Assembly (NCBI RefSeq): GCF_029910655.1
Contig: NZ_CP123897.1
Span: forward strand, 1,426,001-1,490,000
Reading direction: 5' to 3'
Length of the DNA: 64,000 bases
Source: Methylomonas sp. UP202
GTDB taxonomy: Bacteria > Pseudomonadota > Gammaproteobacteria > Methylococcales > Methylomonadaceae
Shown: positions 12,772-32,957 of the stretch, piece after piece
Position numbering within the stretch: the stretch's first letter is position 1
Layout: each line of letters starts with the position of its first letter
Translations under genes and position numbers: made by a program
Notes under the pieces: model-generated
What the model saw: only the letters and a program-made list of their open reading frames with translations
Told to the model about the DNA's origin: nothing
The model's database searches: none

Positions 12772-13773
12772 ATGCAAAACCTGAAATCGATAGCTCGTAC
12801 CGTCTTGGCCGCTTCGGTCATTGCACTGTCGCTGCCGGCAAGCGCCGAGGCGGATGTCATGCTGAGCGGTTACCTGAAAAGCGGTAGCCCGGCAAGTTTC
12901 AGCATCGCCGATCTGCAAGCTTTCGGCGCCGCTACGTCGGTAACGGTCGGCGGCAATACCTATACCGGCGTGTCGCTGTATAGTTATTTGAACAGCTATG
13001 TCGCCACGCAGCCCAACAGCGCGAATGGCCCGAAAAACGATCTCTTACGTGAATTTGTGGTTGCGACCGGTAATAACGGTAGCGCCGTGTACACGATGGG
13101 CAATCAGCTCGGCGGCAACTTCGGGGGAGCCCAGGACATCATTGCCTTTCAAGACAGCAACGGCGTCTTGGCCGCGCCCAGCCTGATCGCGGCCGACGGC
13201 GCCAGCGTGACCAGCCTGACCAGTTTGGATGTCGGTCATGTCGCTTGGCAGGGAACAGGGAGTGGTGGCATAGCGAATTCATTCACGGTCGGTGGTGCGG
13301 TAAGCAATCCCGGTAGCTACTCGCTGGCCAACTTACCGGGCTCGCTGACCCCGATTACGACTTTCAGCAATTTGGCGACGGGTTCGGCGACCGGATTCAC
13401 CGGCGTGTCGATGTGGGATTTATTGGTGGCGTCCGGTATCTCGACCAATCCGTCATCGCTGAAAACTTCCTATGTGGTCGCGACCGCTACCGACAATTAC
13501 ACCGTGGTCTACTCGCTCGGCGAGATCCTGGCGCGGCAAGCTAGCGGCACGCCCGACTTGATTGCTTACGCCGACGGCATAGGCAGTGGTTTGGGCAATG
13601 CCGGGGTCTTCCGCACGATCATTCCCGGCGATACTCGAGGCGGACGCTACATGTCCAACTTGAGCAGCTTGACCGTGGTCAACGCGGTACCGTTGCCGGC
13701 CGCGGCTTGGATGATGCTGAGCGGCGTGCTGGGATTGGCATTCCAATCGCGTAAACGCGTTATAGCCGCTTAA
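12772..13773 (+). CDS. exported PEP-CTERM-like protein with two molybdopterin-oxidoreductase-like domains
   Basis: A 333-residue exported protein. Residues 1-27 are a signal peptide ending PASAEA. Two tandem copies of a domain follow, about 30-165 and 170-305. Each has FSIADLQAF or SYSLANLPG at the start, YTGVSLYSYL or FTGVSMWDLL, an EFVVATG or YVVATAT segment, and in copy 2 IPGDTRGGRYMSNLSSLTV at the end. This pattern resembles the molybdopterin-binding fold of sulfite-oxidase-type enzymes, but I do not see the Cys that binds molybdenum, so it is probably non-catalytic. The C-terminus VPLPAAAWMMLSG plus a helix and RKR is the sorting signal. GAGGAAG precedes the ATG. Confidence 0.82.
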   Translation: MQNLKSIARTVLAASVIALSLPASAEADVMLSGYLKSGSPASFSIADLQAFGAATSVTVGGNTYTGVSLYSYLNSYVATQPNSANGPKNDLLREFVVATGNNGSAVYTMGNQLGGNFGGAQDIIAFQDSNGVLAAPSLIAADGASVTSLTSLDVGHVAWQGTGSGGIANSFTVGGAVSNPGSYSLANLPGSLTPITTFSNLATGSATGFTGVSMWDLLVASGISTNPSSLKTSYVVATATDNYTVVYSLGEILARQASGTPDLIAYADGIGSGLGNAGVFRTIIPGDTRGGRYMSNLSSLTVVNAVPLPAAAWMMLSGVLGLAFQSRKRVIAA

Positions 13774-13876
13774 ATCATTCGGTTCGGCGCACGCCGGACC
13801 CACGCCGATCCCTTGGTGTGCGACCGGCTACGCCGAGTCGCCTGATAACTTGTAAAAACAGTCGCGAGAATTTTCC

Positions 13877-16135
13877 ATGCGTGCCATGTATCGAATGCTT
13901 TGCGGCGGCGCTCTGCTGTCCGCTGTGATGACCTTGCAGGCCGCCGGCCCTCTACCGGTCTCGCTGCGCGGGGTGCCGACGCCACCGGTGCCCGGCCTGC
14001 TGGACGGCGCCAATCCGATCGTGGTCGATAAAAACGCCGCCATCGCCTTGGGCAAGGCCTTGTTTTGGGATCAGAACGTCGGCTCCGACGGTCAGGCCTG
14101 CGCCTCCTGCCACTTCAGCGCCGGCGCCGACGGCCGGCTCAAAAACCAAATCAATCCGGGACAAAATTCGGCGCAACCGGCCGGGCAAACCTTCGATGCC
14201 TTGCCGTCCGGCGCCGGCGGTCCCAATCACACGCTGGTGGCCGAGGACTTTCCGTTGCAACGCTTCGGCAACGTCACCGACAATAGCACGCTGATTTACA
14301 ACACCGATGACGTGGCCGGCTCGGCCGGCAGCTTCGGCGGCGAGTTTCAAGGCACTTCGACCTTCAGTGGTGCCAACGACCAATGCCGGCGCGGCGCCAA
14401 CGAGGTGTTTAACGTCGGCCACGTCGGTACCCGCAAGGTCACGCCGCGCAATGCGCCAACCGTGATTAACGCGGTGTTCAACCACCGCAACTTCTGGGAC
14501 GGCCGCGCCAACAACAGCTTCAACGGCAGCAGTCCGTGGGGGCCGCGCGATCCGGATGCCGGCGTGTGGATCAAGCTCAATGCCAGGACCGTCGTCAAAC
14601 AACGCTTGAATCTGATCAACTCGGCGCTGGCCTCGCAAGCGGTGGCGCCGCCGATTTTCAACGACATCGAAATGGGCTGCCACGGCCGCACCTGGCCGGA
14701 CATCGGCCGCAAATTGCTCAATCGCCAACCGCTGCAAAGCCAGCCGGTACATCCGCAAGACAGCGTGTTGGGCGGGTTAAGCAACAGCGGCGCCGGCGAT
14801 CTGAAGCCGGGCTTGAAAACCACCTACAAAAACCTGGTCATCCAGGCTTTCAACTCCCAATATTGGGCTTACAGCGGTGTCGGCAAATTCGGCGCCCCGG
14901 CCAACGGCGGTGCGGCCTACAACCAGATGGAAGCCAACTTCGCGATGTTTTTCGGTCTGGCGATTCAATTGTACGAATCGACCTTGGTATCCGACCAATC
15001 GCCGCTGGATTTAAGCCCGCTGGATGCGGCCATGATTCCGACTTGGTCCAATGTATCCGATCCGGCGCTGGTCGCGTCGCTGAAACGCGGCGTTAGTCTT
15101 TTCGTTAACAATAACTGCTCGTTGTGCCACGCCGGACCAACGCTTAGTTTGGCGGCAGTGGCGACGAACGCCGCATTGGTTGCGCCGACGCCGGGCGCGA
15201 CCTTCGGCCCGCCCGCGACCCCCATCGCCTACGGCCCCAATGCCTTTGGCCCGAATAATATTGCCGCCGGCGCCGGCATCTCCCGCTATGTCAATCCGGT
15301 CACTCGCGATAATACCGGCCAGAACCTGCCGCGCCTGATGGATTTGGGCTACACCAATGTCGGCGTGACTAAGCCGGATACCGATCCCGGCGTGGCCGGC
15401 GTCGATCCCTTCGGCCAGCCGTTATCGTTCGCGGCCCAATACGTGGAATATCTGGCCGGTAATAACGCCGGGGTCTTCGATTTGCCGATCGACAACGTGC
15501 GTAGCTGCGACTTTCTGATTCCGCTGGCGGTCAACTTGAACGCTCCGCTCAGCAATATTTTCCTGCCCGGCGACGGCATCCAGGCCGACGGCAGCCGGGA
15601 AGGGGGGGCGCGCAACCAAAACTGCCGCAACGCCAATCCGGTCACGGCCTATATCCCGACCGTCGCCGCTGCTCAGGCTAACCGGAACGGTAGCAAAATG
15701 GCGGTCGCGACCAACGCCGCGTTCAAGGTGCCGACCCTGCGCAACGTCGAATTGACCGGGCCTTACATGCACAACGGTGGCATGGCGACGCTGGTGCAAG
15801 TCATCGAGTTCTACGCCAGGCACGGCAATTTCGCCAGTCCGGAATTGCACGGCGTGATCGGCCCGATCGCGGCAAATTTGATCAACCCGCAAAACACCGA
15901 CGATCTGAGTAATTTCCTGAAAGCGCTGACCGACGAACGGGTGCGCTACCAAAAAGCCCCGTTCGACCATCCGCAATTAACCGTCGCCCACGGCCACGTC
16001 GGCAACGATGTGCAAGTTGAAGCCGGCAATTCGCTGGGTGCCGATTTGGCCAAGGACGAAACGCTGACCTTGCCGGCGGTCGGCGCCGACGGCGCGGCCG
16101 CGCCGATTACCCCGTTTTTAGCGCCGCTGCCCTAA
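13877..16135 (+). CDS. large di-heme cytochrome c peroxidase (CCP1)
   Basis: A 752-residue exported c-type cytochrome of the bacterial di-heme peroxidase/MauG superfamily, about twice the length of classical CcpA. A signal peptide (residues 1-23) is followed by NAAIALGKALFWDQ and the first heme site CASCH (75-79); the second, CSLCH, lies near residue 414. The C-terminal FKVPTLRNVELTGPYMHNGG and LSNFLKALTDERV are family landmarks. Extra Cys residues (CRRGANE, GCHGRTW, SCDFL, NCRNA) may form disulfides. The family reduces peroxide or, as in MauG, oxidatively modifies a protein partner; methanotroph homologues are surface-associated. It sits 44 bases upstream of a PEP-CTERM gene, with which it was duplicated. 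Confidence 0.93.
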   Translation: MRAMYRMLCGGALLSAVMTLQAAGPLPVSLRGVPTPPVPGLLDGANPIVVDKNAAIALGKALFWDQNVGSDGQACASCHFSAGADGRLKNQINPGQNSAQPAGQTFDALPSGAGGPNHTLVAEDFPLQRFGNVTDNSTLIYNTDDVAGSAGSFGGEFQGTSTFSGANDQCRRGANEVFNVGHVGTRKVTPRNAPTVINAVFNHRNFWDGRANNSFNGSSPWGPRDPDAGVWIKLNARTVVKQRLNLINSALASQAVAPPIFNDIEMGCHGRTWPDIGRKLLNRQPLQSQPVHPQDSVLGGLSNSGAGDLKPGLKTTYKNLVIQAFNSQYWAYSGVGKFGAPANGGAAYNQMEANFAMFFGLAIQLYESTLVSDQSPLDLSPLDAAMIPTWSNVSDPALVASLKRGVSLFVNNNCSLCHAGPTLSLAAVATNAALVAPTPGATFGPPATPIAYGPNAFGPNNIAAGAGISRYVNPVTRDNTGQNLPRLMDLGYTNVGVTKPDTDPGVAGVDPFGQPLSFAAQYVEYLAGNNAGVFDLPIDNVRSCDFLIPLAVNLNAPLSNIFLPGDGIQADGSREGGARNQNCRNANPVTAYIPTVAAAQANRNGSKMAVATNAAFKVPTLRNVELTGPYMHNGGMATLVQVIEFYARHGNFASPELHGVIGPIAANLINPQNTDDLSNFLKALTDERVRYQKAPFDHPQLTVAHGHVGNDVQVEAGNSLGADLAKDETLTLPAVGADGAAAPITPFLAPLP

Positions 16136-16179
16136 GGCTGGCCCGCGCGCGTATCGACTCCCAACATTCGGAAACCACT

Positions 16180-16950
16180 ATGAAAACAGCGTTTTTTAGA
16201 CCGCTAAACCTAGGCCTAGCATTGGCGCTAAGCCTGTGCCGGCTAAATTCTGCCCACGCATCCGCCAGCTACGACAGCATCGTCACGCTGAGCTACTCGA
16301 TCGGCATTTTAGACAGCACCAATCCCACGGCCGGCGACAGGACGGGCTTGTCCATCCTCGGAACCTATCAGCAAGCTAGCGACGACCAAAACTTTTACGC
16401 AGTCGTCGGCGGCGACGGCCAGTACCAGTCTTACAGTCCCAATCCGGCCGCCGCTACGGTTAGCGGCAAGTTCACCGGTTTGTATTCCGTCGGCGGCAAC
16501 GTTAACTCAGGCAGCGTCGACAGCTTGTTGACGGGATTATTCGGCCTGGAATTGAACAACAACGGTCCGTATAGCTACAACGTGGCCGTTGATTTTCAGT
16601 ACGCACTGCAAGCGGCCGCTCACGGCGAATTCGCCAGCACCAACATTTTGTTCGATTACTGGGACGAGGGCGGCTCGAATTCCGGCTTCGACTATGTCTC
16701 GGCCGACGCGTTTAGCGGCGATCCGGACGATCAGCAATCGGCGGCGGATACCGCCACGTTTCATTTTGGCTTAGCAGCCGGCGCTACTCGACAGCTCTAC
16801 GCCCAAGCCGGCATTAGTTCCCATCTGGAATCGGCGGACGCATCGCCGGTACCGCTGCCCGGCGCTGTCTGGCTGTTCTTAAGCGGCGCATCGGCGAGTC
16901 TCGGGCTTGCCGGCCGGAGGCAACGCGCCGAGGGCGCCCGCCAAGCTTAA
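16180..16950 (+). CDS. exported PEP-CTERM-like protein, partner of CCP1
   Basis: A 256-residue exported protein with no named domain. A signal peptide covers residues 1-28 (ending SAHASA). The body is predicted to be mostly beta with many Ser, Gly, Asn and Tyr. A conserved FDYWDE segment occurs near residue 160. The C-terminal VPLPGAVWLFLSG, a helix and GRRQR make the sorting signal. It follows CCP1 by 44 bases and is probably co-transcribed. The first 65 codons are nearly identical to those of the gene at 23675, after which the two diverge, so the N-terminus has been homogenised or recently copied. Function unknown; a substrate or docking partner of the peroxidase is possible. Confidence 0.8.
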   Translation: MKTAFFRPLNLGLALALSLCRLNSAHASASYDSIVTLSYSIGILDSTNPTAGDRTGLSILGTYQQASDDQNFYAVVGGDGQYQSYSPNPAAATVSGKFTGLYSVGGNVNSGSVDSLLTGLFGLELNNNGPYSYNVAVDFQYALQAAAHGEFASTNILFDYWDEGGSNSGFDYVSADAFSGDPDDQQSAADTATFHFGLAAGATRQLYAQAGISSHLESADASPVPLPGAVWLFLSGASASLGLAGRRQRAEGARQA

Positions 16951-17354: not shown

Positions 17355-18149
17355 ATGAAATTTTTATCATTGCAACACGGCGCGGCCCTAATGGCGGTGG
17401 CACTAACTTTCGGTAACGGCGCCGCGCAAGCCGGCATCGCCTATAACACCAACGGTTGGGACAGCGGCGATTTTCCCGGTGCGTCCGGATTCGTGCCCGG
17501 CACCTGGACAGGCGGCGGCGCGCCGGCATACAGCGGTAAACTGAATGCGGTTTGGTACGCGGACTTGGCGGCCGGCACCAGCGAAACGGTTTCCAGTGCA
17601 AACGGCGTCGCGGCCGGCGCCGATCCGTTATACGAATTGGCGGTCGGGCCGATGGGCTGGCAGCGTAACCCGGCGGCGACTTATCCGCATCAAGGCATGG
17701 GCCACGGTTCGGATATAGGCCTGATTACATTGGATACCACAACCGATCTGACCATCACCGTAGCCGCCGATTCCGATACGCCGTTGGACCCCACCACGGT
17801 CGTTAAACCTGGCTTCTCATTGTTTCAAGGTTGGGACACCGGGACCACCGCCAATCAAGTTCAAGCCTATTACAACAACCTCAACAATCCGCTCGGTAGC
17901 GTGGGCCTGACGTATTTGAACGGCGCGGGCGCCGCTACCGGCCTCACCTCGATCAGTCTGGTGTTCAACCATCTGGCGGCCGGCAACTATACGTTGATCC
18001 TCGGCGGCAACGCCGGCGGCGGCCACGGCGCTTACAGCGTCGCCTTCTTCGCCGCGCCGGTACCGGTGCCGGGCGCGGTGTGGCTGTTCGGCGGCGCCTT
18101 GGCGGGTTTGGTTGGCGTTGGCCGCCGTAACGGGAATCTCGAAGCATAG
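17355..18149 (+). CDS. exported PEP-CTERM-like protein, hypothetical
   Basis: A 264-residue exported protein. The signal peptide is residues 1-26 (ending AAQAG). The body contains TNGWDSGDFPG, MGWQRNPAATYPHQGMGHG with several His and Met residues, and a late beta-rich HLAAGNYTLILGGNAGGGHGAY segment resembling the C-terminal sandwich domains of other PEP-CTERM proteins. The C-terminus VPVPGAVWLFGGALAGLVG with RRN is the sorting signal. The His/Met-rich patch could bind metal, but this is only suggestive. I recognise no family beyond the sorting class. Confidence 0.8.
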   Translation: MKFLSLQHGAALMAVALTFGNGAAQAGIAYNTNGWDSGDFPGASGFVPGTWTGGGAPAYSGKLNAVWYADLAAGTSETVSSANGVAAGADPLYELAVGPMGWQRNPAATYPHQGMGHGSDIGLITLDTTTDLTITVAADSDTPLDPTTVVKPGFSLFQGWDTGTTANQVQAYYNNLNNPLGSVGLTYLNGAGAATGLTSISLVFNHLAAGNYTLILGGNAGGGHGAYSVAFFAAPVPVPGAVWLFGGALAGLVGVGRRNGNLEA

Positions 18150-18174
18150 GTGCGATTTACCCAAGAGCATAAAA

Positions 18175-18240
18175 GCGCAGCGTAATCGCACGCATGTCAG
18201 ATCTTCGTTCCTCCGATTACGCTGCGCCAATCGGAGGAAC
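18175..18240. repeat. two overlapping, mutually exclusive hairpins
   Basis: Arms 18175-18188 and 18214-18227 are a perfect 14-base inverted repeat (GCGCAGCGTAATCG / CGATTACGCTGCGC). Arms 18207-18218 and 18229-18240 are a perfect 12-base inverted repeat (GTTCCTCCGATT / AATCGGAGGAAC). They share bases 18214-18218, so an RNA could form only one at a time. It lies just downstream of the gene at 17355. Confidence 0.75.
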
Positions 18241-18272
18241 GCGGACTTAAACCGGGACAGTTTGAGGTTAAG

Positions 18273-18305: not shown

Positions 18306-18427
18306 TTGCCCGGTAGGTTAGACACATGCTGCTCGTGCGCTGGTGGGTTTGATGGTTAATGGTGGGCAACATTGCCCGCTCTACACCTTGGGCATTTTTA
18401 GGCAATTACATGAATAGAGGAGGCAAC

Positions 18428-19315
18428 ATGCAATGTCATTCAACCCGAAGGCGGGCGCCGCCCGGTTTGGCGTTCGCGGTTTTGGGTTTCGCGCTGGCCG
18501 GCTTGCCGGTGGCCGGTGTCGGGGCCGCCACCATCACGCTGGGGGCGGGCAAGGTCTCGACGATTTTCGAAAATCAGCCGACCCACAGTATCGGCAAGGG
18601 CCCGGCCGTGTTTATCGGCGGCGATGCCGACGGCTCGCCGCGGCGCGGTTTGATCGATTTCAATATCGCCGCCAATCTGCCGGCGACGGCGGTCATCACC
18701 GGTGTGGAGTTGACCTTGTATCTGGCCGATGTGGCCGGTGCCGGCGGGAGTGAAGATGCCACGCCGCGCACTATCGAACTGCATCGGTTGACCGGCAATT
18801 GGGCTCACGGTCCCACCGCTTTGGGCGTTACCCAAATCGAGGGCACCGACCAAGGGTTTCCGGCGATTCCTCCCAGCCCGACCTGGCTGGACCGCCGCTA
18901 TTTACAAAACCAGCCTTGGGCCACGCCGGGCGGCGATTTCCAGCCATTGACCAGCGCCAGCACCTTGGTCGGCCAGGCTATCGGCGCGGCCTATACCTGG
19001 GCTTCCACGCCGGAGCTGGTCGCCGATGTGCAGGCCATGCTGAACGCGCCGTCCACCAATAACGGTTGGGTATTGCTGAATGCCGAGGAATGGAGTCCGG
19101 ACACCTACCGGGTGTTTTACTCGCAAGCCTGGGACGACACCGCGCTACGCCCGCGGCTAAAAATCAGCTACGAGCTGGCGGCCGTGCCGCTGCCGGCGGC
19201 AGTCTGGCTGTTCGGCGTCGGCTTGTTGGGCTTGGTCGGCACCCTGCGCCCTTCGACTAGCTCAGGGCGAACGGTATTTAAAGGCCGAGTTAATAACTCG
19301 GAGGTGAAGTCATGA
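18428..19315 (+). CDS. exported DNRLRE-type PEP-CTERM-like protein A
   Basis: A 295-residue protein starting at the ATG at 18428 with AGGAGG six bases upstream. A signal peptide (about 1-37) precedes a domain beginning ATITLGAGKVSTIFENQ and including RRGLIDFNIAANLPATAVITGVELTLYL, the pattern of DNRLRE-type extracellular beta domains. The sorting helix VPLPAAVWLFGVGLLGLVG follows. Instead of ending after the basic tail, the frame continues through a CCCTTCGACTAGCTCAGGG dispersed repeat, adding a tail that contains PSTSSGRTV. The stop overlaps the next ATG (ATGA), so translation of the paralogue at 19312 is probably coupled. Confidence 0.85.
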   Translation: MQCHSTRRRAPPGLAFAVLGFALAGLPVAGVGAATITLGAGKVSTIFENQPTHSIGKGPAVFIGGDADGSPRRGLIDFNIAANLPATAVITGVELTLYLADVAGAGGSEDATPRTIELHRLTGNWAHGPTALGVTQIEGTDQGFPAIPPSPTWLDRRYLQNQPWATPGGDFQPLTSASTLVGQAIGAAYTWASTPELVADVQAMLNAPSTNNGWVLLNAEEWSPDTYRVFYSQAWDDTALRPRLKISYELAAVPLPAAVWLFGVGLLGLVGTLRPSTSSGRTVFKGRVNNSEVKS

Positions 19316-20337
19316 AGCTGCTGACACAGTTTTCCCGAACCGCGCTGGTTTGCCTGCTGCTAGCCGATTCGGCGGCGGTATCGGCGGCGGTCGTTACCCT
19401 GACGCCCAGCAAGGATGCGACGATTTTTGGTACCAGCATCAATCAAGGCCTGCCCAATTCGTCCGGCCAGGATTTGTTCAATCACAGCAATGGCGCTGGA
19501 CCCGGCATGTTTGCCGGCGGTAACGGCCAATTCGCGCCGCATCGCGGGTTGATTGCCTTCGATATCGCGTCGCAAATACCGGCGGGCTCGGTGATTACCG
19601 GCGTGCAGTTGACGATGTACATCGGCATCGTCGCCGGATCGGGCGGTGCGGCCGGACTCGGCGACCAAACGCCGCGAACCATGGATTTGTTTCGCCTGAC
19701 CCGCGATTGGGGCGAAGGCATTACCGGCGGCAACGCCACACAGATCGGCGGCACCGGCCAAGGCTTCCCGGCCAATCCCGGCGACGCCACCTGGAACGAC
19801 GCGGCCTACCGGCAGACGCCGTGGACCACGCCCGGCGGCGATTACGTCAGCCAAGCCAGCGCCACGCTGGCGGTCGGCAGCGTCTTCGGGTCGGCGCAAA
19901 CCTGGACGACTACACCAACCTTTGTCCAGGACGTACAAGCCTGGCTGGACGATCCATCGAGCAATTTCGGTTGGATATTGATCAACCGCGACGAAGATCT
20001 CAAGCAAACCCATCGTGCCTTTTATACCAGCGAATGGACCGATCCGGCGCTGCGTCCGCAATTGCAGGTTAGCTATCAACCGGCGCCGGTTCCGGTGCCA
20101 GCCGCCGTCTGGTTGTTTGGTACCGGCATCACCGGTTTGTTGGGCCTGACTCGGCGTAAAGCCTACGGCGCAGGCAAACCGTCGGCTTTTATTTTTTTAA
20201 TCGTTCAACTCAAAAAGGAAACAAACCATGAAAAAGCAGACAGTTTTAACGTTGACGGCGGCAATGCTGGTGTGGGGCCAAGGCGCTTGGGCGGCGATAT
20301 TAACAGGGGGTACCGGCACGTTTACCGTTGCCAATGA
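19312..20337 (+). CDS. exported DNRLRE-type PEP-CTERM-like protein B, with lost native stop
   Basis: Paralogue of the preceding gene (shared pattern: TPRT-DL-RLT--W--G, RRGLI-FDIA, a VQAWLDDPSSN-GW segment). Signal peptide about 1-26. The sorting segment VPVPAAVWLFGTGITGLLGLTRRK ends near base 20160, where such proteins normally stop. Here the frame runs on through an intrinsic-terminator-like hairpin at 20158-20198 and 110 bases into the next gene before stopping at 20337. A TAA lies one frame away exactly at the expected end, so a single-base indel, real or a sequencing error, could explain the 60-residue tail. GGAGGTGA precedes the ATG. Confidence 0.8.
   Translation: MKLLTQFSRTALVCLLLADSAAVSAAVVTLTPSKDATIFGTSINQGLPNSSGQDLFNHSNGAGPGMFAGGNGQFAPHRGLIAFDIASQIPAGSVITGVQLTMYIGIVAGSGGAAGLGDQTPRTMDLFRLTRDWGEGITGGNATQIGGTGQGFPANPGDATWNDAAYRQTPWTTPGGDYVSQASATLAVGSVFGSAQTWTTTPTFVQDVQAWLDDPSSNFGWILINRDEDLKQTHRAFYTSEWTDPALRPQLQVSYQPAPVPVPAAVWLFGTGITGLLGLTRRKAYGAGKPSAFIFLIVQLKKETNHEKADSFNVDGGNAGVGPRRLGGDINRGYRHVYRCQ
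20158..20198 (+). terminator. probable intrinsic terminator
   Basis: Arms 20158-20168 (AAAGCCTACGG) and 20179-20189 (CCGTCGGCTTT) pair with one mismatch, followed by a T-rich run to 20198. It falls inside the extended reading frame of the gene at 19312, which supports the idea that the original stop codon lay just before it. Confidence 0.7.
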
Positions 20338-21127
20338 CGCGGGCAGATTCTACAGCTCCAGCGTCGATAGCAGCGGCAACGCCCTTTTAAACAGCAACCC
20401 CGGTTACCGGGATTTTACCTACAACTTTACCTTGGGCGGCGGCGGTTTGAATCAACTCAAGATCAACTCGTCCGCCACTTCGGGCCAAGCGGGACAGCTC
20501 GCGGGCACCGCTACTTCGGGCATCTACGACGGTAATTTTTGGGTCACCACCAACGGTGGCAAGGGCGGCAATGACGACATGATTCTGGCCGTGGCGCTAA
20601 CGGGTCCGATTTCCAGCGATTTTGCGCTGACCATTCAGTCCAACGGTTATGTCGTCGCGCCAAACCAAACCACGAGACCGACGGTATCGGCCGGCAACTG
20701 GCAAACCAATGTCGTGAATGAAACCTTTTACGGATCGGACTTTATCTATGGTCCGATGACCAGTAGGCCCGCGTCGGTGTACCAGCCGCTCTATAACGGC
20801 CAAGATCCCGCTACCACGGGCGCGCTGATGTTCATCGATCTTGGCGTCGCCAACCGGGTCGGTAATCTGTCGGATCAAGTCGTTTTCAGCGTGACCGGCC
20901 TCTATGCCGAAAATGTGTTGGCGTTCAGCACGTATGCCTACGACCTTATCGGCGGCAACACGGTAGCCAATGCGATCGGCTGGACAACCCCCACCGCCTC
21001 AACCGGCTATACCGTCATAGGCGCCGGCGTCGCGCCCGTTCCGCTACCGGCGGCCGTTTGGTTATTCGGCGGCGCGGTGGCGGGCTTGGTCGGTTTTGGC
21101 CGCCGCAAGGGGCGTCCGACGGTTTGA
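20228..21127 (+). CDS. exported PEP-CTERM-like protein, hypothetical
   Basis: A 299-residue exported protein with AAGGAA upstream of the ATG. The signal peptide is residues 1-22 (ending GAWAA). The body is beta-rich with many Asn, Gly and Thr, and has the segments NPGYRDFTYNFTLGGGG and FYGSDFIYGPM. I recognise no named domain. The C-terminus VPLPAAVWLFGGAVAGLVG plus RRKGR is a textbook copy of the sorting signal used in this cluster. It lies 30 bases after a terminator-like hairpin and probably has its own promoter. Confidence 0.82.
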   Translation: MKKQTVLTLTAAMLVWGQGAWAAILTGGTGTFTVANDAGRFYSSSVDSSGNALLNSNPGYRDFTYNFTLGGGGLNQLKINSSATSGQAGQLAGTATSGIYDGNFWVTTNGGKGGNDDMILAVALTGPISSDFALTIQSNGYVVAPNQTTRPTVSAGNWQTNVVNETFYGSDFIYGPMTSRPASVYQPLYNGQDPATTGALMFIDLGVANRVGNLSDQVVFSVTGLYAENVLAFSTYAYDLIGGNTVANAIGWTTPTASTGYTVIGAGVAPVPLPAAVWLFGGAVAGLVGFGRRKGRPTV

Positions 21128-21132
21128 AGGTG

Positions 21133-21215: not shown

Positions 21216-21350
21216 TGCTCAGGCTGAGCGGTCATTGCGTACCCCACCGGGCTAAAAATTCCCTCGCCTTTATGCTCGGTGGGTCTAAGGGAAAAAGGTT
21301 TTTTTCAATGTTCAGAGATTCCCTTTAATAAATTAAATTTGGAATTGGCA

Positions 21351-23630: not shown

Positions 23631-23674
23631 GGCTGGCCCGCGCGCGTATCGACTCCCAACATTCGGAAACCACT

Positions 23675-24502: not shown

Positions 24503-25096
24503 ATGAAAACTGTTAAACCCCGATCCAAAGCTTCGACCCTGGCGCTGGCCGCCGTTTTAGGCGCGGCCTCGTTCCCCGGCCAGGCCGCCATTGTCGAATA
24601 TCAATTGAATTTGACCGACAAACATAACGGCGCCATCGGTAGCGGCGCCTTTATCTGGAATAGCGACAGCGAAATCATGACCTCGCTGAATTGGACCATC
24701 AACGGCCATAGCGGCTCGGTGTTGGATAGCGCCCTGGCTTCCACATACCGCAGCTACGATCCGCTGGCCAACACCTACGGCGAATTGTTCTACCGCTATT
24801 TCACCGCCCCGCAAGCCTTCCTCGTCGCCGAACTTGGCCTGACCGGCCATAGCGTCGGCATGATGCCCTACAACGTGTCCAGCGATTTCTTCGGCTTCGT
24901 CGGTTTCGGCGCGGAAAAAACCAGCAGCGCCGGCACCTATCTGTTCTATGACAAAAATTGGAGCGTCAACACCGAGGGCTATCTGACCGCCACCGTGGTA
25001 CCGGTACCGGCGGCAGTTTGGTTGTTTGGTGGCGCTTTGACCGGCTGGCTTGGCTTTAGTCGGCGCAGGGCCGTGATTGCGACTAGCGAGGGCTAA
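24503..25096 (+). CDS. exported PEP-CTERM-like protein, hypothetical
   Basis: A 197-residue exported protein with AAGGATG eight bases before the ATG. The signal peptide is residues 1-29 (ending PGQAA). The body begins IVEYQLNLTDKHNGAIGSGAF and has GELFYRYFTAPQAF, a pattern often seen in short PEP-CTERM proteins without an assigned function. Sorting signal VPVPAAVWLFGGALTGWLG and SRRR. It follows the CCP2 partner by 66 bases and may belong to the same unit. Confidence 0.8.
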   Translation: MKTVKPRSKASTLALAAVLGAASFPGQAAIVEYQLNLTDKHNGAIGSGAFIWNSDSEIMTSLNWTINGHSGSVLDSALASTYRSYDPLANTYGELFYRYFTAPQAFLVAELGLTGHSVGMMPYNVSSDFFGFVGFGAEKTSSAGTYLFYDKNWSVNTEGYLTATVVPVPAAVWLFGGALTGWLGFSRRRAVIATSEG

Positions 25097-25290: not shown

Positions 25291-26181
25291 ATGAACACAT
25301 TGCGATTCAAACAAGCCGAACTGGCGCTCGCCGTCGGCGCGGTGCTGATAGGGCACACCGGTCTGGCCGCCGCCAGCACCTTAAGCGTGGAAGCCACGGC
25401 CGACACCTTTTTGACCAACTACGCCTTACAAGCCGACTCCGACATGTCCAGCTACGGCGCGATGATGATTTCCTCGCCGCAAGCCGACTTGGTACAAGGC
25501 ATCTCCCAGGTCCGCACCATGGAAAATCTGGTGTCGTATAACAGCGCCTCCATCAAGTCCGGCTTCGACAGCCAATTCGGCGCCGGCAACTGGCACGTCA
25601 CCGACGTGCAACTGAAGTGGTACACCAACTTCGACGTGCAAGGCGTGCCGGCCAACAACAACCAATTCAACGTCCCGCACGCCGGTTACTTCGGCGTGTC
25701 CTATTTCAGTAACGACAGCTGGTTCAATCCCGCCACCGCCGGCCCTACCGGTTTGACCGTGAGCACGCCGAAAGTGACCTGGAATTCGGTGTACAACGGC
25801 GGCGCCTGGAGCAGTCTGTTCTCCGGCCAGCAAGCCTTGGGCACCTTTTACTATCCGACCGGTAATTCCAACGGCACCACCGACTGCGTTTCCCAACAAT
25901 GCGCGCCGCGCTATTGGGATCTCAGCCTGGATGCGACCATGGTTGCCGACATCATGGCCGGCGGCTATCTGTCCTTCCACGGTTACGCCGCCGACGATCA
26001 AGTGGTTTATTTGGTTAACCAGTTGACCAAGCCCGGTGCTCATCCGCAAATCTTCGTCAGCGCCGAAGCGGGTCCGGCCGCCGTGCCGCTACCCGGCGCG
26101 GCATGGTTGTTCATCGGGCCGGCGTTATCGTTCCTGGGTCTGGCCAAACGTAAGCACGCCGCCGGCTCGGTTCGAGCTTAG
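25291..26181 (+). CDS. exported PEP-CTERM-like protein, Trp-rich family copy 1
   Basis: First of three paralogues (the others are at 28732 and 29781). A signal peptide (1-29) precedes TLSVEATADTFL, which resembles DNRLRE-type domains. Features shared by all three are NWHVTDV-(L/V)KWY, a WNSV or WDSV segment, and a CxxxxCAPR(Y/F)WDL motif with two conserved Cys that may form a disulfide. Sorting signal VPLPGAAWLFIGPALSFLG with KRK. The conserved Trp and Tyr residues in exposed-looking contexts would be candidates for oxidative modification by the neighbouring peroxidases; that is inference only. Confidence 0.82.
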   Translation: MNTLRFKQAELALAVGAVLIGHTGLAAASTLSVEATADTFLTNYALQADSDMSSYGAMMISSPQADLVQGISQVRTMENLVSYNSASIKSGFDSQFGAGNWHVTDVQLKWYTNFDVQGVPANNNQFNVPHAGYFGVSYFSNDSWFNPATAGPTGLTVSTPKVTWNSVYNGGAWSSLFSGQQALGTFYYPTGNSNGTTDCVSQQCAPRYWDLSLDATMVADIMAGGYLSFHGYAADDQVVYLVNQLTKPGAHPQIFVSAEAGPAAVPLPGAAWLFIGPALSFLGLAKRKHAAGSVRA

Positions 26182-26383: not shown

Positions 26384-28237
26384 ATGAGCCGCAATCCGGT
26401 CTTTATCGCTTGGGACGCGGCATTCGCCGACGCCTCGCTGGCGATACGCCAACAACGTTACGCCCAGGCGCTGGTTGTGTTGCGTCCGCTAATCGGAGAC
26501 GCCGCGCGCAAAGCCAAGCAGTGGCCGCCGTATCGCCACGCGCTGGCCGGCTATGCCCTGGCCCTTTATCGACACGGAGAGGTCAACGAAGCCTTGCTGC
26601 AACAAAGCCGCTTGCTACTGCTGGCGCCCAACGACGCCGAAGCTCGCGGCAACTTGTTGCTGTTATTACAAACCGAAGCCATCGAATTCCCCGATTCCGC
26701 CGAATTCCGCCGGGTATTGCACGGCGTGCTCGGCCAAACCGAACTGAGCGATTACGCGGTGCCGGCCTGCCGCGCCTTGCTGGCCGACGCCGCCTTCCGC
26801 CAGGCCTTGCAACGGTTGCGCGGCGACGATGCCGAAGTCGTCACCGCCTTGCGCCAGGGCCGCTTGCGTCCGCTGCTGCAAGCGCCGTTATTGCAATTGC
26901 TGCTGCGTAACACCTTGATACCGCAGCCTGACTTCGAACTGGCCTTGCGCCGCCTGCGCAAGGCGCTGTTGATGCACTACACCGCTGACCCGCACCGCCC
27001 GCCGCAAACCGGCAAGGCCGACTGGGACTTCATCGCCGCGCTGGCGCAGTATCAATGGCTGACCGAATACGCCTACGCCGAAGACCCGGAAGAAAGCCGA
27101 CGGCTGGCCGCGCTGGCTCTGCAGCTGCAAGCCGGCCGCGATCGTCCGGCCGAACCCGCCTGGCAAGCGGCGCTGACTTATTTTGCGTTGTACCGCTCCG
27201 GTCTGGAATTAGCCGATTGCCGGTCACTGTTTTGCCAATCCGCCGTCAGTTGGAAGCCCCATCTGCAAGCTCTGATTCGCGAATGGCAAGCCTGTTTGCG
27301 CGAGCGCACATTGGCGGCAACCGTCGAACGCCTCACCGACATCGCCGACCCGGTGTCCGAACAAGTCCGCCGTCAATACGAAGAACATCCCTTTCCGCGC
27401 TGGCGGCAAGACCCGCAAGCCCGCCAAGTGCAAAGCGCCGGCCAATGGCTGCGCGGCCTGGCCCCCGATTTGGCGCTGTCCGCCGATTTCGACGGCGACA
27501 TCGCGGTACTGACCGCCGGTTGCGGAACCGGCTTGGAACCGATTTCGCTGACCCGGCAAATTCGTATCGGCCGTTATCTGGCGCTGGATCTCAGCCGAGC
27601 CAGCCTGAGCTATGCCCTGCGCATGGCCGGCGAACTGGGCCTGCGAGACCGCATCGATTTCAAACAAGCCGACCTGACCCGGCTCGACGGCTACCCGGAA
27701 CGTTTCGACCTGATTACCGCCAGCGGCGTGCTGCACCACCTGGCCGAACCGCTGCACGGCTGGCGCATCCTCTGCAATCTATTGAAACCCGGCGGGGTGA
27801 TGTTGGTCAGTTTATACAGCGAAGCGGCGCGGCGGCCGGTCGCCGCCGCCCGGCAACTGATCGCCGCCAACGGTTGGCAAGCGGAGCCGGATCGCATGCG
27901 CCAACTGCGCCAAGCCATACTCGCCGGCGACTACCCGGAACTCGCGCCGCTGTTGCAATGGCGCGACTTTTACAACCTCGGCATGTTCCGCGACTTGGTG
28001 TTTCACGCTTGCGAGCACCGCTTCACGCTGCCGCAAATCGCCGCGCAACTGCGACAACTCAATTTGCGCTTCATTGCCATGCGCGGCCTGCCGCCGGCCT
28101 TGAACGCCTTGTACCACGCCGACTATCCGCACGACCCTAACGGCAGCGACTTGGCCAATTGGGCTAGCTTCGAAGCCCACCATCCAAACGCCTTTCGTTC
28201 GATGTATGGATTGTTGCTGCAAAAACCGCCGCCGTGA
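26384..28237 (+). CDS. TPR-containing SAM-dependent methyltransferase
   Basis: A 617-residue cytoplasmic protein with no signal peptide; GAGGAG precedes the ATG. The N-terminal region (about 1-120) has TPR-like helical pairs, the middle is helical, and from about residue 325 there is a class I methyltransferase: VSEQVRRQYEEHPFPRW, motif I VLTAGCGTGLEP, acidic motif II YLALDLS, and RFDLITASGVLHHL. The QYEEHPFPRW lead-in is shared with methyltransferases fused to TPR repeats in other proteobacteria. It probably methylates a protein or peptide; the substrate is unknown. It is the only clearly cytoplasmic enzyme inside the surface-protein cluster, and its position between paralogous secreted proteins suggests a role in their modification. 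Confidence 0.85.
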   Translation: MSRNPVFIAWDAAFADASLAIRQQRYAQALVVLRPLIGDAARKAKQWPPYRHALAGYALALYRHGEVNEALLQQSRLLLLAPNDAEARGNLLLLLQTEAIEFPDSAEFRRVLHGVLGQTELSDYAVPACRALLADAAFRQALQRLRGDDAEVVTALRQGRLRPLLQAPLLQLLLRNTLIPQPDFELALRRLRKALLMHYTADPHRPPQTGKADWDFIAALAQYQWLTEYAYAEDPEESRRLAALALQLQAGRDRPAEPAWQAALTYFALYRSGLELADCRSLFCQSAVSWKPHLQALIREWQACLRERTLAATVERLTDIADPVSEQVRRQYEEHPFPRWRQDPQARQVQSAGQWLRGLAPDLALSADFDGDIAVLTAGCGTGLEPISLTRQIRIGRYLALDLSRASLSYALRMAGELGLRDRIDFKQADLTRLDGYPERFDLITASGVLHHLAEPLHGWRILCNLLKPGGVMLVSLYSEAARRPVAAARQLIAANGWQAEPDRMRQLRQAILAGDYPELAPLLQWRDFYNLGMFRDLVFHACEHRFTLPQIAAQLRQLNLRFIAMRGLPPALNALYHADYPHDPNGSDLANWASFEAHHPNAFRSMYGLLLQKPPP

Positions 28238-28731
28238 CCAAGCGGGCCAGCTTGTGGAACCGACGCACGCGTTTCCTCAACGCGGTTTTGTCCCGTCTAC
28301 CTCGGGAAGAGCGCTAGGAAGAGGAGGAACCAATCGCGTTGGTGGCTGAAAACCTCGGCAGCGAAAACCGGGGCGTGGGGAGAGATAAGGCATTTCGACC
28401 GGATCAAGGAGGGGATTGGCGATGGTTAGCCAACCGGGAACCAGCGTTGATCGGCTCTTGCTGGATTGCCGGGTTTTGCGGGTGCTCATTGCCGTCATAC
28501 CGGCGCGGACCGCCGGTGTCCAGCACGCAAGGATGTGAAGGGCTTGCGCTTATGGGTTCCGGCATCCCGTTGTGCCCTATAGGTAGGCCGAACGACGTGT
28601 TTTCCGTTAACTCAATGGTCGCCGTTCCGCTTTGCGATTGAAAGGCTAGATACGTTACGCGCTTGGATGATTCCGCGTTTTATGCCCGTTAGCTAATTGG
28701 CGGAAATTTTAATCAATCGATGAGGAAACTT
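28238..28731. other. 490-bp spacer
   Basis: No gene seen. ACCGGCG at 28499-28505 and CGCCGGT at 28511-28517 form a small hairpin of the kind found in dispersed intergenic repeats. The last 70 bases are AT-richer and probably carry the promoter of the gene at 28732. Confidence 0.5.
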
Positions 28732-29784
28732 ATGCAACACAAGCTGTTTAAACAATCCGCCTCGGCAACGCTGGCGGCGTTGCTGGCCGGACCGTTTGGC
28801 GCCGCCAGTGCCGGGACGTTGAGCGTCGATTCGGTCGCCGATACCTATCTGAACAGCGATCCCGTGCTGTCCAATCGGGATTGGTCCAATTTCGGGGCGA
28901 TGGGGATTTCGGCGAATCTGGCCAATCCGGCAAAGGGCATGACCACGCCCAGAACCATGGACGCGCTGATTGCTTACGACACGGCGGCGATCAAATCCGG
29001 TTTCGATGCCGAATTCGGCGCCGGCAACTGGCACGTCACCGACGTCAAGGTGAAGTGGTATTCCAATTACGACATCCTCGGCGTGGCCCCTACCAACCCT
29101 CAGCTGAATGTACCGGCCGCCGGTGCGTTCCATATTTCGTTGTTGACCGATAACGGCTGGTTCGACGCGGCCAGTGCCGGCGACAAGGGTTTTGCCAATA
29201 CCGATTTGAATTGGGATTCGGTGTTCGGTGCCGGCGGCAAGTACGGCAAATTGCTGGATGGCGCGCAAGTACTGGGCACCTACAGCTACGGCGGCGGCAA
29301 TTTCAACGGCGGTAACAATTGTCTGAACGAGGTCTGCGCGCCGCGTTTCTGGGATTTGGGCGCCAATGCCGATCTGTACGACAGCATCGCCAACGGCGGC
29401 TTCGTGTCGCTGTTCGGTTCGGCGGCGGACAGCAACGTGAGCTACATCGTCAGCCAACGCAGCGCCGCCGGCGCGCATCCGCAATTGTTCGTCAGCGCGG
29501 CGGCGGGCGTTGCCGCCGTGCCGCTGCCGGCCGGGCTTAGTCTGTTTTTGAGCGGGGGCTTGTCCCTACTGGGAATCGGCCGTCGCCGTGGGCCGCTCGT
29601 GCCGAGCAAAGTCCAAGTAGGACCGGCCCACAACGCGCCCACCCTCTGGGCGAACGAAAAATCCCGCTCGCCCTTCGACAAGGCTCTCCCGAGTGCAGCC
29701 GAAGGGCTGAGGACGAACGGGGTGTTGTATAGACCAACTGCACTTTCTAGGATCATTTCAAACACGTTGGAGCGATGCTCATGA
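28732..29784 (+). CDS. exported PEP-CTERM-like protein, Trp-rich family copy 2, with extended tail
   Basis: The ATG at 28732 is chosen because GAGGAAA lies just upstream; an in-frame ATG at 28720 sits inside that site. The product keeps the family marks NWHVTDVKVKWYSN, WDSVFG and CLNEVCAPRFWDL. The sorting segment is VPLPAGLSLFLSGG...GRRRG, where Trp is replaced by Ser. The frame then continues about 60 residues beyond the usual end, through a palindromic repeat (29668-29720), and stops in an ATGA overlap with the next gene. The extra tail would place soluble sequence after the sorting helix, which could interfere with exosortase processing unless cleaved. Confidence 0.82.
   Translation: MQHKLFKQSASATLAALLAGPFGAASAGTLSVDSVADTYLNSDPVLSNRDWSNFGAMGISANLANPAKGMTTPRTMDALIAYDTAAIKSGFDAEFGAGNWHVTDVKVKWYSNYDILGVAPTNPQLNVPAAGAFHISLLTDNGWFDAASAGDKGFANTDLNWDSVFGAGGKYGKLLDGAQVLGTYSYGGGNFNGGNNCLNEVCAPRFWDLGANADLYDSIANGGFVSLFGSAADSNVSYIVSQRSAAGAHPQLFVSAAAGVAAVPLPAGLSLFLSGGLSLLGIGRRRGPLVPSKVQVGPAHNAPTLWANEKSRSPFDKALPSAAEGLRTNGVLYRPTALSRIISNTLERCS
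29668..29720. repeat. CGCCCTTCGAC...GAACGG dispersed repeat inside coding sequence
   Basis: A longer, internally modified copy of the repeat at 18273-18305: CTCGCCCTTCGACAAGGCTC at one end and GAAGGGCTGAGGACGAACGG at the other. It supplies codons to the C-terminal tail of the gene at 28732. Confidence 0.65.
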
Positions 29785-30683
29785 ACCTACTTTCCCTTCG
29801 CCGCGCCGCGCTGGCGGCCAGCTTGGCCGTGATATTCGCCGGCCAAACCGGAACCGCCTCGGCCGCCACCACGCTGAACATCGACGCGGTCGCCGACACC
29901 TTCCTTTCCAGCGACCCGGACTACGCCGACCGCGATATGTCGGCGTTCGGGGCGATGCAGATTTCCGCCGACTTGCCGGATTACGTGCAGGGCATCATGT
30001 ACCCGCGTACCTTGGATTTACTGGTGGCTTACGATACGGCGGCGATCAAGGCCGGCTTCGATAGCCAATACGGTGTCGGCAACTGGCATGTCACCGACGT
30101 GCGGGTCAAGTGGTACAGCAATTTCGACATCCTCGGCGTGCCCGCGCACAATCCGCAGTTCAACGTGCCGGCCGCCGGGGTTTTCAATATTTCGCTGCTC
30201 GCGAACAATGGCTGGTTCGATAAACAGGCGGCCGGCCCGTTGGGTTTGGCCAATAACGATTTGAATTGGAATTCGGTGTTCGGCGCCGGCGGCAAGTACG
30301 CTAACTTGCTGGACGGCATCCAAACCTTGGGCACCTACAGCTATACCGGCGGTGATTTCAACGGCACCAACAATTGCAGCAACGACGTTTGCGCACCGCG
30401 CTTCTGGGATTTGGGCGACAGCGCCGATCTGCTGAACATCGTCGCCGGCGGCGGCACCGTGTCGCTGTTCGGTTCGGCGGCGGACGCCAATGCCACCTAT
30501 CTGGTCAATCAGCTCACCAAGCCGGGCGGACATTCGCAAATTTTCGTCAGCGCGGAGGCCGGCCCCGCCGCGGTGCCGTTGCCGGCCGGCGTTTGGTTGT
30601 TCCTGAGCGGCGCTTTGCCGTTAATGGCCGGTTGGCGGAGCCAATCCGCCGGCCGCGTTCTTGCGGTTCGAGACGACGATTAA
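29781..30683 (+). CDS. exported PEP-CTERM-like protein, Trp-rich family copy 3
   Basis: A 300-residue paralogue starting in the ATGA overlap with the preceding stop; GGAG lies 8 bases upstream, so the ATG at 29781 is better than the one at 29775. Shared motifs are NWHVTDVRVKWYSN, WNSVFG and CSNDVCAPRFWDL. Signal peptide 1-26 (ending ASAAT). The sorting segment VPLPAGVWLFLSGALPLMAG has only a weakly basic tail. CCP3 begins 12 bases after its stop, so in this unit the secreted protein precedes the peroxidase, the reverse of the CCP1 and CCP2 arrangement. Confidence 0.84.
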   Translation: MNLLSLRRAALAASLAVIFAGQTGTASAATTLNIDAVADTFLSSDPDYADRDMSAFGAMQISADLPDYVQGIMYPRTLDLLVAYDTAAIKAGFDSQYGVGNWHVTDVRVKWYSNFDILGVPAHNPQFNVPAAGVFNISLLANNGWFDKQAAGPLGLANNDLNWNSVFGAGGKYANLLDGIQTLGTYSYTGGDFNGTNNCSNDVCAPRFWDLGDSADLLNIVAGGGTVSLFGSAADANATYLVNQLTKPGGHSQIFVSAEAGPAAVPLPAGVWLFLSGALPLMAGWRSQSAGRVLAVRDDD

Positions 30684-30695
30684 AGCGAGGCGGTC

Positions 30696-32957
30696 ATGCG
30701 AGTCATTCCTTTAGTCATGTTGGCCGGCGCTTTGTTGGCGGCACAAGCGGCGCTGGCGATAGGCCCGGTGCCGGTATCCTTGCGCAACGTGCCGATACCG
30801 CCGGTGCCGGGCCTGCTGGACGGCGCCGCGCCCATCGTCGTCGATAAAAACGCCGCGATCGCGTTGGGCAAGGCCTTGTTCTGGGATCAGGCGGTCGGCA
30901 GCGACGGTCAGGCCTGCGCGTCCTGCCATTTCCACGCCGGCGCCGACGGGCGGGTCAAAAATCAGCTCAATCCTGGTGGGAACAGTGTCCATGCTAGCGG
31001 CCGGACATTCGATACCCTGCCTTCCGGTGGCGGCGGTCCGAATCACACGCTCAGCCTGGACGACTTTCCGTTGCATCAATTCAGCAATCCGGCCGACAAC
31101 ACCAGCCGGGTGGTGTTCAGCAGCGACGACGTGGTCGGCTCCGCCGGCAGTTTTAGCGGGCAATATCAAAGCGTATCGCAATTCGGTTCGGCCAACGATC
31201 GATGCGCGCGCTCCGCCGATCCGCTGTTCAAGGTCGGTTCGGTCGGTACCCGGCAAACCACGGCCCGCAACGCGCCCAGCGTGATCAACGCGGTGTTCAA
31301 CCACCGCAGTTTTTGGGACGGCCGCGCCAATAATATTTTCAACGGCAGCAGCCCGTGGGGCGAGCGCGATCCGGACGCCGGCGTCTGGGTGAAAATGAAT
31401 GCCAAAACCGTCGCCAAGCAACGGCTGCACTTGGTCAATGCTTCGTTGGCCTCGCAGGCGGTCGCGCCGCCGACCAACAGCGCCGAAATGAGCTGCGACG
31501 GCCGACATTGGCAGGACATAGGCCGCAAGGTGTTGTCGCGGCAAGTGTTGCGCGACCAACTGGTGCATCCCCAGGATAGCGTGTTGGGCGCGATGAGTCT
31601 GGCCGCGAACCGGAAGCCGGGCTTGAATACGACTTACCGCAATCTGGTCACCCGCGCCTTTGCTTCGCGCTATTGGTCCTACAGCGGCACCGGTCCGTTC
31701 GGCGCGCCGGTCGGCGGCGGCTTGCCTTACAACCAGATCGAGGCCAATTTCGCGATGTTCTTCGGTTTGGCCATACAGTTGTACGAATCGACCTTGATCT
31801 CCGACCTGGCGCCGTTCGATCTCAGCCCGATCGACGCCAACATGAAACCGACTTGGAGCAACGTCGCCGCCGCCACGCCGGCGGAAACCCAGGCCTTGGT
31901 GGCCTCGTTAAAAAACGGCGTGGAATTGTTCGTGAACAATCATTGCAATCTGTGCCATGCCGGCCCGGCGTTTAGTTTGGCGGCGGTGGCGGCCAATGCG
32001 GCGTTGTTGACGCCGACGCCCGGCGCCAGCTTCGGTCCCCCGGATACGCCAATCGCGTTCGGTCCGAATGCCTTCGGCCCGTTCGGCGCCGCCGCCAAGG
32101 GCGGCATCAATCGCTACGGCAATATCGTCACCCGCGACACAAACATTCAGCAGTTACCGAAATTCATGGACTTGGGCTACGCCAATAACGGCGCCGTCGA
32201 TGTGGAAGACGATCCCGGCGTCGGCGGCACGGACGATTTCGGTAATCCCTTGTCCTATAGCGCGCAATATGTCGAGTATTTGTTGGGCAACGCGACGGGC
32301 TTGCTCGATCCGGGCGTGAACAGCATCCGCGCCTGCGATTTTATCAGCCCGCTGGCCTATAACGTTGCGGTGAATCTGCCCAATGTATTTTTGCCTAGCG
32401 ACGGCTTGCAGGCCGACGGTAGCCGCGAAGGCGTGTTGCGCAATCAAAACTGCACGAATGCGGTGACGGCTTATATCCCCACTCCGGCCGCCGCGCTAGC
32501 CAATTTGTCCGCCAGTAAAATGGCCGTGGCAACCCACGGCGCGTTCAAAGTGCCGACCTTGCGCAACGTGGAATTGACCGGCCCTTATATGCATAACGGC
32601 GGCATGGCGACTCTACGGCAAGTGATCGAGTTTTATAGCCGGCACGGCAATTTCAGCAGCGATAGCCTGCATTTTCATCTGGCCGGTTTTTCGACGTTGA
32701 CGACGACGGAACAAAATGTCACCGATCTGACTAACTTTTTGCTCTCGTTGACCGACGAGCGGGTCAGATACCAAAGGGCGCCGTTCGATCATCCTCAGCT
32801 CATCGTCGCCCACGGCCACCTCGGCGGCGACCTGCAAGTCCAAGCCGGCCACGTCTTGGGCGCAAACTTGGGCCAAGACGAGCTGCTGGCGATTCCGGCG
32901 GTCGGCGCCAACGGCTCTTCGGCACTGATCGCCCCATTTTCGGATCCGCGACCATGA
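30696..32957 (+). CDS. large di-heme cytochrome c peroxidase (CCP3)
   Basis: A 753-residue paralogue of CCP1 and CCP2, colinear along its whole length but diverged throughout, so it is an older copy. Signal peptide 1-22. Heme sites CASCH near residue 75 and CNLCH near 417; the C-terminal YMHNGGMATLRQVIEFYSRHGNF block and the NFLLSLTDERVRYQRAPFDHPQL block are conserved. Closely linked to the two Trp-rich secreted proteins upstream (12-base gap). As for the others, the reaction could be peroxide reduction at the surface or MauG-like protein oxidation; the sequence alone does not decide. Confidence 0.93.
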   Translation: MRVIPLVMLAGALLAAQAALAIGPVPVSLRNVPIPPVPGLLDGAAPIVVDKNAAIALGKALFWDQAVGSDGQACASCHFHAGADGRVKNQLNPGGNSVHASGRTFDTLPSGGGGPNHTLSLDDFPLHQFSNPADNTSRVVFSSDDVVGSAGSFSGQYQSVSQFGSANDRCARSADPLFKVGSVGTRQTTARNAPSVINAVFNHRSFWDGRANNIFNGSSPWGERDPDAGVWVKMNAKTVAKQRLHLVNASLASQAVAPPTNSAEMSCDGRHWQDIGRKVLSRQVLRDQLVHPQDSVLGAMSLAANRKPGLNTTYRNLVTRAFASRYWSYSGTGPFGAPVGGGLPYNQIEANFAMFFGLAIQLYESTLISDLAPFDLSPIDANMKPTWSNVAAATPAETQALVASLKNGVELFVNNHCNLCHAGPAFSLAAVAANAALLTPTPGASFGPPDTPIAFGPNAFGPFGAAAKGGINRYGNIVTRDTNIQQLPKFMDLGYANNGAVDVEDDPGVGGTDDFGNPLSYSAQYVEYLLGNATGLLDPGVNSIRACDFISPLAYNVAVNLPNVFLPSDGLQADGSREGVLRNQNCTNAVTAYIPTPAAALANLSASKMAVATHGAFKVPTLRNVELTGPYMHNGGMATLRQVIEFYSRHGNFSSDSLHFHLAGFSTLTTTEQNVTDLTNFLLSLTDERVRYQRAPFDHPQLIVAHGHLGGDLQVQAGHVLGANLGQDELLAIPAVGANGSSALIAPFSDPRP

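Follow-up and report, generated by a model that had tools for sequence, protein, structure and literature searches.

In the closest described systems, corA-corB of Methylomicrobium album BG8 and mopE-SACCP of Methylococcus capsulatus, the gene of a large di-haem enzyme of the MauG/cytochrome c peroxidase (CCP) family lies beside that of a surface protein. Two other di-haem enzymes invite comparison, namely MauG, of tryptophan tryptophylquinone (TTQ) biogenesis, and MbnH, which converts a Trp of the copper protein MbnP to kynurenine. For CorA, PMC3912023 gives H64, H114 and Kyn62 (a kynurenine) as copper ligands and holds the proposal that CorB and SACCP make this kynurenine. Here, a related locus is described in a 64,000-nucleotide stretch of Methylomonas sp. 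UP202 (contig NZ_CP123897.1, positions 1,426,001 to 1,490,000; hereafter the window), in which three large CCPs (CCP1, CCP2 and CCP3) are encoded among eleven secreted proteins. The 5.68-Mb, two-contig genome holds two genes of the ammonia monooxygenase/particulate methane monooxygenase (AMO/pMMO) family, and the host is therefore a methanotroph.

The window system most likely works like CorA-CorB and MopE-SACCP and belongs to that enzyme clade, its CCPs grouping with those that follow CorA. Unlike those loci, it has three CCPs, a partner family termed A3 and a set of swapped proteins with exosortase-type tails, and CorA proper was not found in the genome. The reading we favor, with slightly less than even confidence, is that the CorB/MauG-type peroxidase and A3 form a constant core, and that a client slot is filled by copper proteins in some cases and by other anchored surface proteins in others.

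Clade and key residues of the peroxidases

The three CCPs, put at about 755 residues by an earlier sequence-only reading, are 752–759 residues long and carry two CxxCH sites each, near residues 75–79 and 414–418. All match PF03150 (61–74 bits, cut-off 25.6) and have a signal-peptide-like start; by domain and haem sites they are exported di-haem peroxidases of the CorB/SACCP type. CCP2 is 81% and CCP3 68% identical to CCP1, and CCP3 is 98% identical to a CCP of Methylomonas koyamae R-45383.

A tree was built by a quick method (midpoint root, SH-aLRT support, no named CorB or SACCP reference included) from 123 distinct CCPs, none shorter than 600 residues, which came from the window, 78 named loci (retained as the best of 131 relatives), three further loci of the same genome and 40 hand-picked Methylococcales regions. 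Ninety of the 123 form one clade (SH-aLRT 99), which includes the window CCPs and those lying 3' of CorA or CorA-like genes. It divides into a small branch of four sequences, two with CorA upstream; type I, with 43 sequences and a CorA-like gene upstream of 40 (support 85); and type II, with 43 sequences, of which 36 have A3 downstream, two another CorA-like gene and five neither (support 98). CCP1–CCP3 are all of type II, CCP3 being one of the five sequences lacking A3. Type I and type II modules adjoin in loci L144, L153, L148, L021 and L048, in the order CorA-like, type I CCP, type II CCP, A3 in L144 and L153.

By alignment, the inter-haem Trp (W207), a Glu (E265) and Y646 are kept in 90 of 90 clade members, the MauG-type pattern of an axial Tyr rather than Met; 89 retain the N-terminal CxxCH, the one exception being cut at a contig end. 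Y646 aligns with the Tyr of 6e1c (‘Di-heme enzyme’), which we take to be MbnH, and with the Met of the classical CCPs 1iqc and 3o5c; Tyr294 and Trp93 are presumably the MauG counterparts of the aligned Tyr and inter-haem Trp. The likeness to SACCP/MopE enzymes proposed from sequence alone is thus borne out, both by the shared clade with CorA-linked CCPs and by the MbnH-type Tyr in place of the classical Met.

By the curated models, the window CCPs are neither MbnH nor MauG. Scores against the MbnH model TIGR04039 are 80.5, 75.5 and 87.4 bits (cut-off 362.85), and the window enzymes are about twice as long as MbnH, with which they share the placement of the enzyme gene beside that of a secreted protein. 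Scores against the MauG TTQ model TIGR03791 are 59.2, 55.1 and 60.2 bits (cut-off 443.85). No MbnP-named NCBIfam model matched the window partners at E ≤ 0.1, and methylamine dehydrogenase families were matched by none of 20 proteins scanned around the window CCPs.

Alternatively, the CCPs may scavenge H2O2 or transfer electrons at the cell exterior, with A3 as an anchor and the other PEP-CTERM proteins as co-regulated members of an exopolysaccharide (EPS) matrix, which we regard as unlikely while giving it real weight. It draws support from M. capsulatus, where several surface c-type cytochromes including SACCP rise in low-copper cells making soluble methane monooxygenase (sMMO), a change read in PMC4831470 as possible extracellular electron transfer. 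The invariant Tyr, and the absence of the classical-peroxidase Met from all 90 sequences, argue against it. So does the distribution of partners, whose labels change 11 times on the CCP tree against a mean of 60.6 after shuffling; partner families thus track CCP branches beyond what unrelated matrix proteins would lead one to expect, with shared neighborhood ancestry contributing.

A near-constant partner and its exchangeable neighbors

Among 151 Methylococcales genomes, A3 lies directly downstream of a large CCP at 39 of its 41 places. A large CCP is encoded in 33 of the 33 genomes with A3 and in eight of the eight with A2, a second partner family, compared with 76 of 151 overall; partner families occurring without any peroxidase in many genomes, which the sequence-only reading had named as evidence against itself, were therefore not encountered. 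Outside the sorting tail, neither Trp nor His is conserved in the A3 family, which is therefore unlikely to be a Trp-oxidized substrate. This is a second point in favor of a surface electron-transfer or H2O2-removing role.

All genes of the cluster (12772–33516) lie on the + strand:

12772..13773, +, secreted VPLPA-CTERM protein, family W12751, immediately 5' of CCP1 (TIGR03370, 26.0 bits, cut-off 25.35)
13877..16135, +, CCP1, large di-haem peroxidase of CorB/SACCP-MauG type, 752 aa (PF03150, 61.3 bits; clade; residues)
16180..16950, +, A3 family, near-constant CCP partner (neighbor counts; AlphaFold2 model; exosortase-type tail by eye)
17355..18149, +, CorA-like surface protein, W17355 family, with Met replacing the kynurenine-forming Trp (hhalign; motif M-G-H)
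18428..19315, +, DNRLRE-domain surface protein (NF033679, 51.1 bits, cut-off 34)
19312..20337, +, DNRLRE-domain surface protein (NF033679, 54.0 bits, cut-off 34)
20228..21127, +, secreted VPLPA-CTERM protein, family W20228, immediately 5' of CCP2 (TIGR03370, 25.5 bits, cut-off 25.35)
21351..23630, +, CCP2, 759 aa (PF03150, 74.4 bits)
23675..24436, +, A3 family, second copy (similarity to first copy; neighbor counts)
24503..25096, +, small PEP-CTERM protein (TIGR02595, 16.7 bits, cut-off 16)
25291..26181, +, A2 family, copy without adjoining CCP (family comparison)
26384..28237, +, TPR-like protein with S-adenosylmethionine (SAM) methyltransferase (PF08242, 57.7 bits; kept near A2 in two congeneric genomes, L133 and L134)
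28720..29784, +, A2 family (family comparison)
29775..30683, +, A2 family, CBM96-like fold, ending 12 bp 5' of CCP3
30696..32957, +, CCP3, 753 aa (PF03150, 62.2 bits)
33109..33516, +, truncated-haemoglobin-like protein, kept in the cluster (PF01152, 22.7 bits, cut-off 21; L010, L133, L134)

For the first DNRLRE gene, the ATG at 18428 was chosen over the listed start at 18359 from the position of the signal peptide; for CCP2, 21351 was used, the listed GTG at 21279 giving 783 aa. The cluster thus matches its first description, in which eleven + strand secreted proteins with sorting ends and a methyltransferase had been recognized, as had the spacings of 44 bp from CCP1 and CCP2 to their A3 genes and of 12 bp from the second of two adjoining A2 paralogs to CCP3. 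By eye, all eleven proteins (two A3, three A2, two DNRLRE, the CorA-like 17355, and 12772, 20228 and 24503) end in VP(L/V)P...LF followed by basic residues, with a Ser for the Trp of ‘WLF’ in 28720. Curated sorting models pass three of them (12772 and 20228 as VPLPA-CTERM, 24503 as PEP_CTERM), and 16180, 25291, 28720 and 29775 have no NCBIfam match at E ≤ 0.1. The host genome encodes two exosortases.

That PEP-CTERM genes and CCPs merely accumulate in a recombination-prone region, with no functional link, is highly improbable and already contradicted. The region does hold a duplication, as the CCP1-A3 and CCP2-A3 units (13939–16666 and 21422–24161) share 82.7% DNA identity over 2.7 kb, their A3 proteins being 65% identical overall and identical over the first 65 residues; and genes with such tails are many, the A3 model matching 29 places in the host genome, mostly via sorting tails. 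Against this stand the A3 placements given above and those of A2 (11 of 19), which hold across genera, and the frequency of PEP-like tails by a crude pattern, found in 89 of 174 neighbors of CCPs (scoring at least 570 bits) versus 25 of 346 genes more than 4 kb away in the same loci. The clustering of CCPs with secreted proteins is not chance.

In L009 and L134, homologs of 12772 immediately precede CCPs; a homolog of 24503 lies between two CCPs in L134, and five other genomes, one of them from the same species, encode CCP3 relatives directly behind A2. The three window A2 proteins are 45–61% identical to one another. The family occurs at 19 places in eight genomes, 11 of them within 1.2 kb upstream of a CCP, and adjoins a CCP in six of the genomes. 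It contains an invariant Trp, Tyr and two Cys, and its fold, judged on one member, matches CBM96, a polysaccharide-binding type. Unlike described CBM96 and DNRLRE surface proteins, A2 members have no Pfam match (E ≤ 1) and no NCBIfam match (E ≤ 0.1), and nothing above 5% was obtained by hhalign against the DNRLRE pair. The expectation that partners carry conserved Trp/Tyr motifs holds in part: NWHVTDV and CAPR(Y/F)WDL are largely kept across A2, and FDYWD is not kept across A3.

With two DNRLRE proteins by sequence and three A2 proteins by the fold of one member, five of the eleven secreted proteins are of DNRLRE/CBM96 type, which points to polysaccharide binding and lends further support to a matrix role of the kind set out above; so does the lowered EPS after disruption of the exosortase EpsH in Methylomonas LW13, as given in PMC11072679. 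The same EPS link, the aromatic residues invariant in the CBM96-like A2 and the many paralogs in one locus would also suit oxidative cross-linking, in which the CCPs join Tyr/Trp of anchored CBM-like proteins, either between proteins or with polysaccharide, and so harden the EPS. We judge this quite unlikely, since copper proteins, and in some cases TonB receptors, are indicated by the sister loci.

Several neighboring features were also observed. The genes for A2, the truncated haemoglobin and the TPR-methyltransferase are grouped as a block in two congeneric genomes (L133:6132–8426; L134:3894–6410), which in the window is rearranged around CCP3 (26384–28237 and 33109–33516). A2 genes away from CCPs (L138:9444–10337 and L139:9007–9873) adjoin TonB-dependent receptor genes (PF07715/PF00593). 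Just 5' of the cluster, 10436–12064 encodes a TPR protein that ends in a putative 2OG-Fe(II) oxygenase domain (PF13759, 96 bits). The stretch 8947–9760 of the window is repeat-rich, with open frames on both strands and a recurring ‘LRSGNG...FGSAQGT’ peptide, perhaps a non-coding direct-repeat array.

CorA-like proteins and the copper link

The protein upstream of the CCP in L050 and L051 is CorA itself (match to PDB 4bz4, 388 bits). The CorA-like family that precedes type I CCPs, found in Nitrosomonas and Methylomonas, aligns to 4bz4 across the Trp-x-His stretch with E 0.001 (13 members used). Of 51 members, 48 keep the Trp, 46 have His or Met two positions further on and 47 have the second His. 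As the hhalign score against CorA is moderate, the link rests also on the motif, on gene position and on the W17355 family. The profile of 17355, the only CorA-like protein found in the cluster, reaches 97.6% against the CorA-like0 profile and 81.6% against CorA over 57 columns (hhalign; pairwise values, not database E-values). It sits one gene behind CCP1-A3, and no protein of the CorA/MopE family was found adjoining CCP2 or CCP3.

Directly 3' of CorA-like-CCP pairs, TonB-dependent receptors occur in L034 (CCP 7307–9595), L166 (4878–7097; taken as the same contig as L019) and L169 (5993–8287, −), and a TonB C-terminal protein in L039 (CCP 9935–12211). The three receptors score 129–143 bits against the TonB-copper model, below its cut-off of 472, and higher against haemin/transferrin receptor models; six of the 11 downstream neighbors scanned are unrelated. 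In L021 (15341–18661), an ApbE-family gene lies 93 bp behind such a pair.

A further motif resembling that of CorA marks a candidate metal site in family C7, whose genes lie upstream of nine type II CCPs. Its 24 proteins, 12 short and PEP-CTERM-like (for example L105:10058–10930 (−) and L015:8990–9808) and 12 long, share HxH (24/24), Tyr-His (23/24) and Trp-x-His (W 23/24, H 22/24). The long proteins (about 990–1400 aa, some cut), near CCP loci and one of them in the host genome, are:

L105:12615–16805, L015:5255–8560, L145–L148, L150, L152, L155, L157, L162, L172, long proteins matching the C7 model

As the long protein of L147 and that of L171:386–3148, which is not C7-flagged, are both DUF3570 (Pfam), CCP loci may be associated with an additional surface component.

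There is thus support for an old association between these enzymes and surface proteins of the copper type; in the window locus, a copper role may be proposed. Several observations weigh against the favored core-and-client reading. The earlier proposal that the peroxidases may mature secreted partners with conserved Trp and Tyr is not borne out as written, A3 having no suitable residues and 17355 having Met-Gly-His where the CorA site has Trp-x-His, with the oxidized Trp; in its family (53 distinct members) the position is W in 27 and M in 10, Trp being absent from 26. Besides the lack of CorA proper in the host genome and the low scores against the MbnH and MauG models, the CorA-like family reaches just 50–52% against CorA by hhalign (CorAlike5 7%), and the next match after 4bz4 is an unrelated splicing factor at E 0.006. 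In the 151 genomes, CorA-like genes lie directly 5' of a CCP at only 14 of 22 places, and one of the 20 genomes that contain them (G081) has no large CCP at E ≤ 1e-80. Eight of 19 A2 places are not next to a CCP, and A2 resembles a carbohydrate-binding module. The weightiest of these counterpoints are the missing Trp/His of A3, the Met of 17355 and the mild phenotype of a CorB-type knockout in M. alcaliphilum, which, according to PMC3912023, showed faster growth and was believed to retain copper binding.

Proposed oxidative maturation of surface proteins

If the core-and-client reading holds, the window harbors an expanded, partner-swapped relative of the corA-corB and mopE-SACCP copper loci. 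The peroxidase, whose two CxxCH sites and signal-peptide-like start suggest an exported, haem-loaded enzyme, would be held at the cell surface by exosortase-sorted A3, a tethering suggested by the near-obligate gene pairing. With H2O2 and its Tyr-ligated haem, it would take electrons from aromatic residues of a client, by analogy with MbnH and MauG, the client being a surface protein whose gene lies in the same locus. For sister loci, this would be CorA or a CorA-like protein with a Trp-x-His/Met ... His site, its Trp converted to kynurenine for copper binding; in the window, the slot would have passed to A2 for CCP3, to 12772 for CCP1 and to 20228 for CCP2. The outcome would be oxidatively matured surface proteins that bind metal or the EPS layer. 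By analogy with M. capsulatus and M. album, these proteins would probably be made under copper limitation.

A broader possibility, which we think doubtful, is that CCP and A3 form a general, portable unit for surface protein oxidation into which evolution plugs different exosortase-sorted clients: kynurenine copper proteins, the carbohydrate-binding protein of the window with its conserved Trp, and elsewhere the His-rich C7 with its Trp-x-His.

Three features look new, namely that A3 is a near-obligate partner, that clients are exchanged along the CCP tree and that the system is amplified within a single locus; no description of them was found among the titles and opening abstracts of the papers listed. 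A near-constant partner combined with exchangeable surface proteins suggests that the finishing of proteins outside the cell is organized as a modular system.

These findings bear on how methanotrophs and ammonia oxidizers obtain copper for pMMO and AMO, and on the role of SACCP/CorB enzymes, questions that date from the time when MopE and CorA were solved. Together with the CCP-A3 pair and the branch-specific partners, the CorA-like family with Trp-x-His/Met and the TonB receptors behind some of these genes provide a concrete set of enzyme-client pairs, in which natural Trp-to-Met variants allow one to ask whether these peroxidases modify surface proteins. Should the portable-unit possibility prove true, methanotrophs and ammonia oxidizers would possess a class of post-translational modification that alters Trp/Tyr of anchored surface proteins and extends beyond MopE and CorA.

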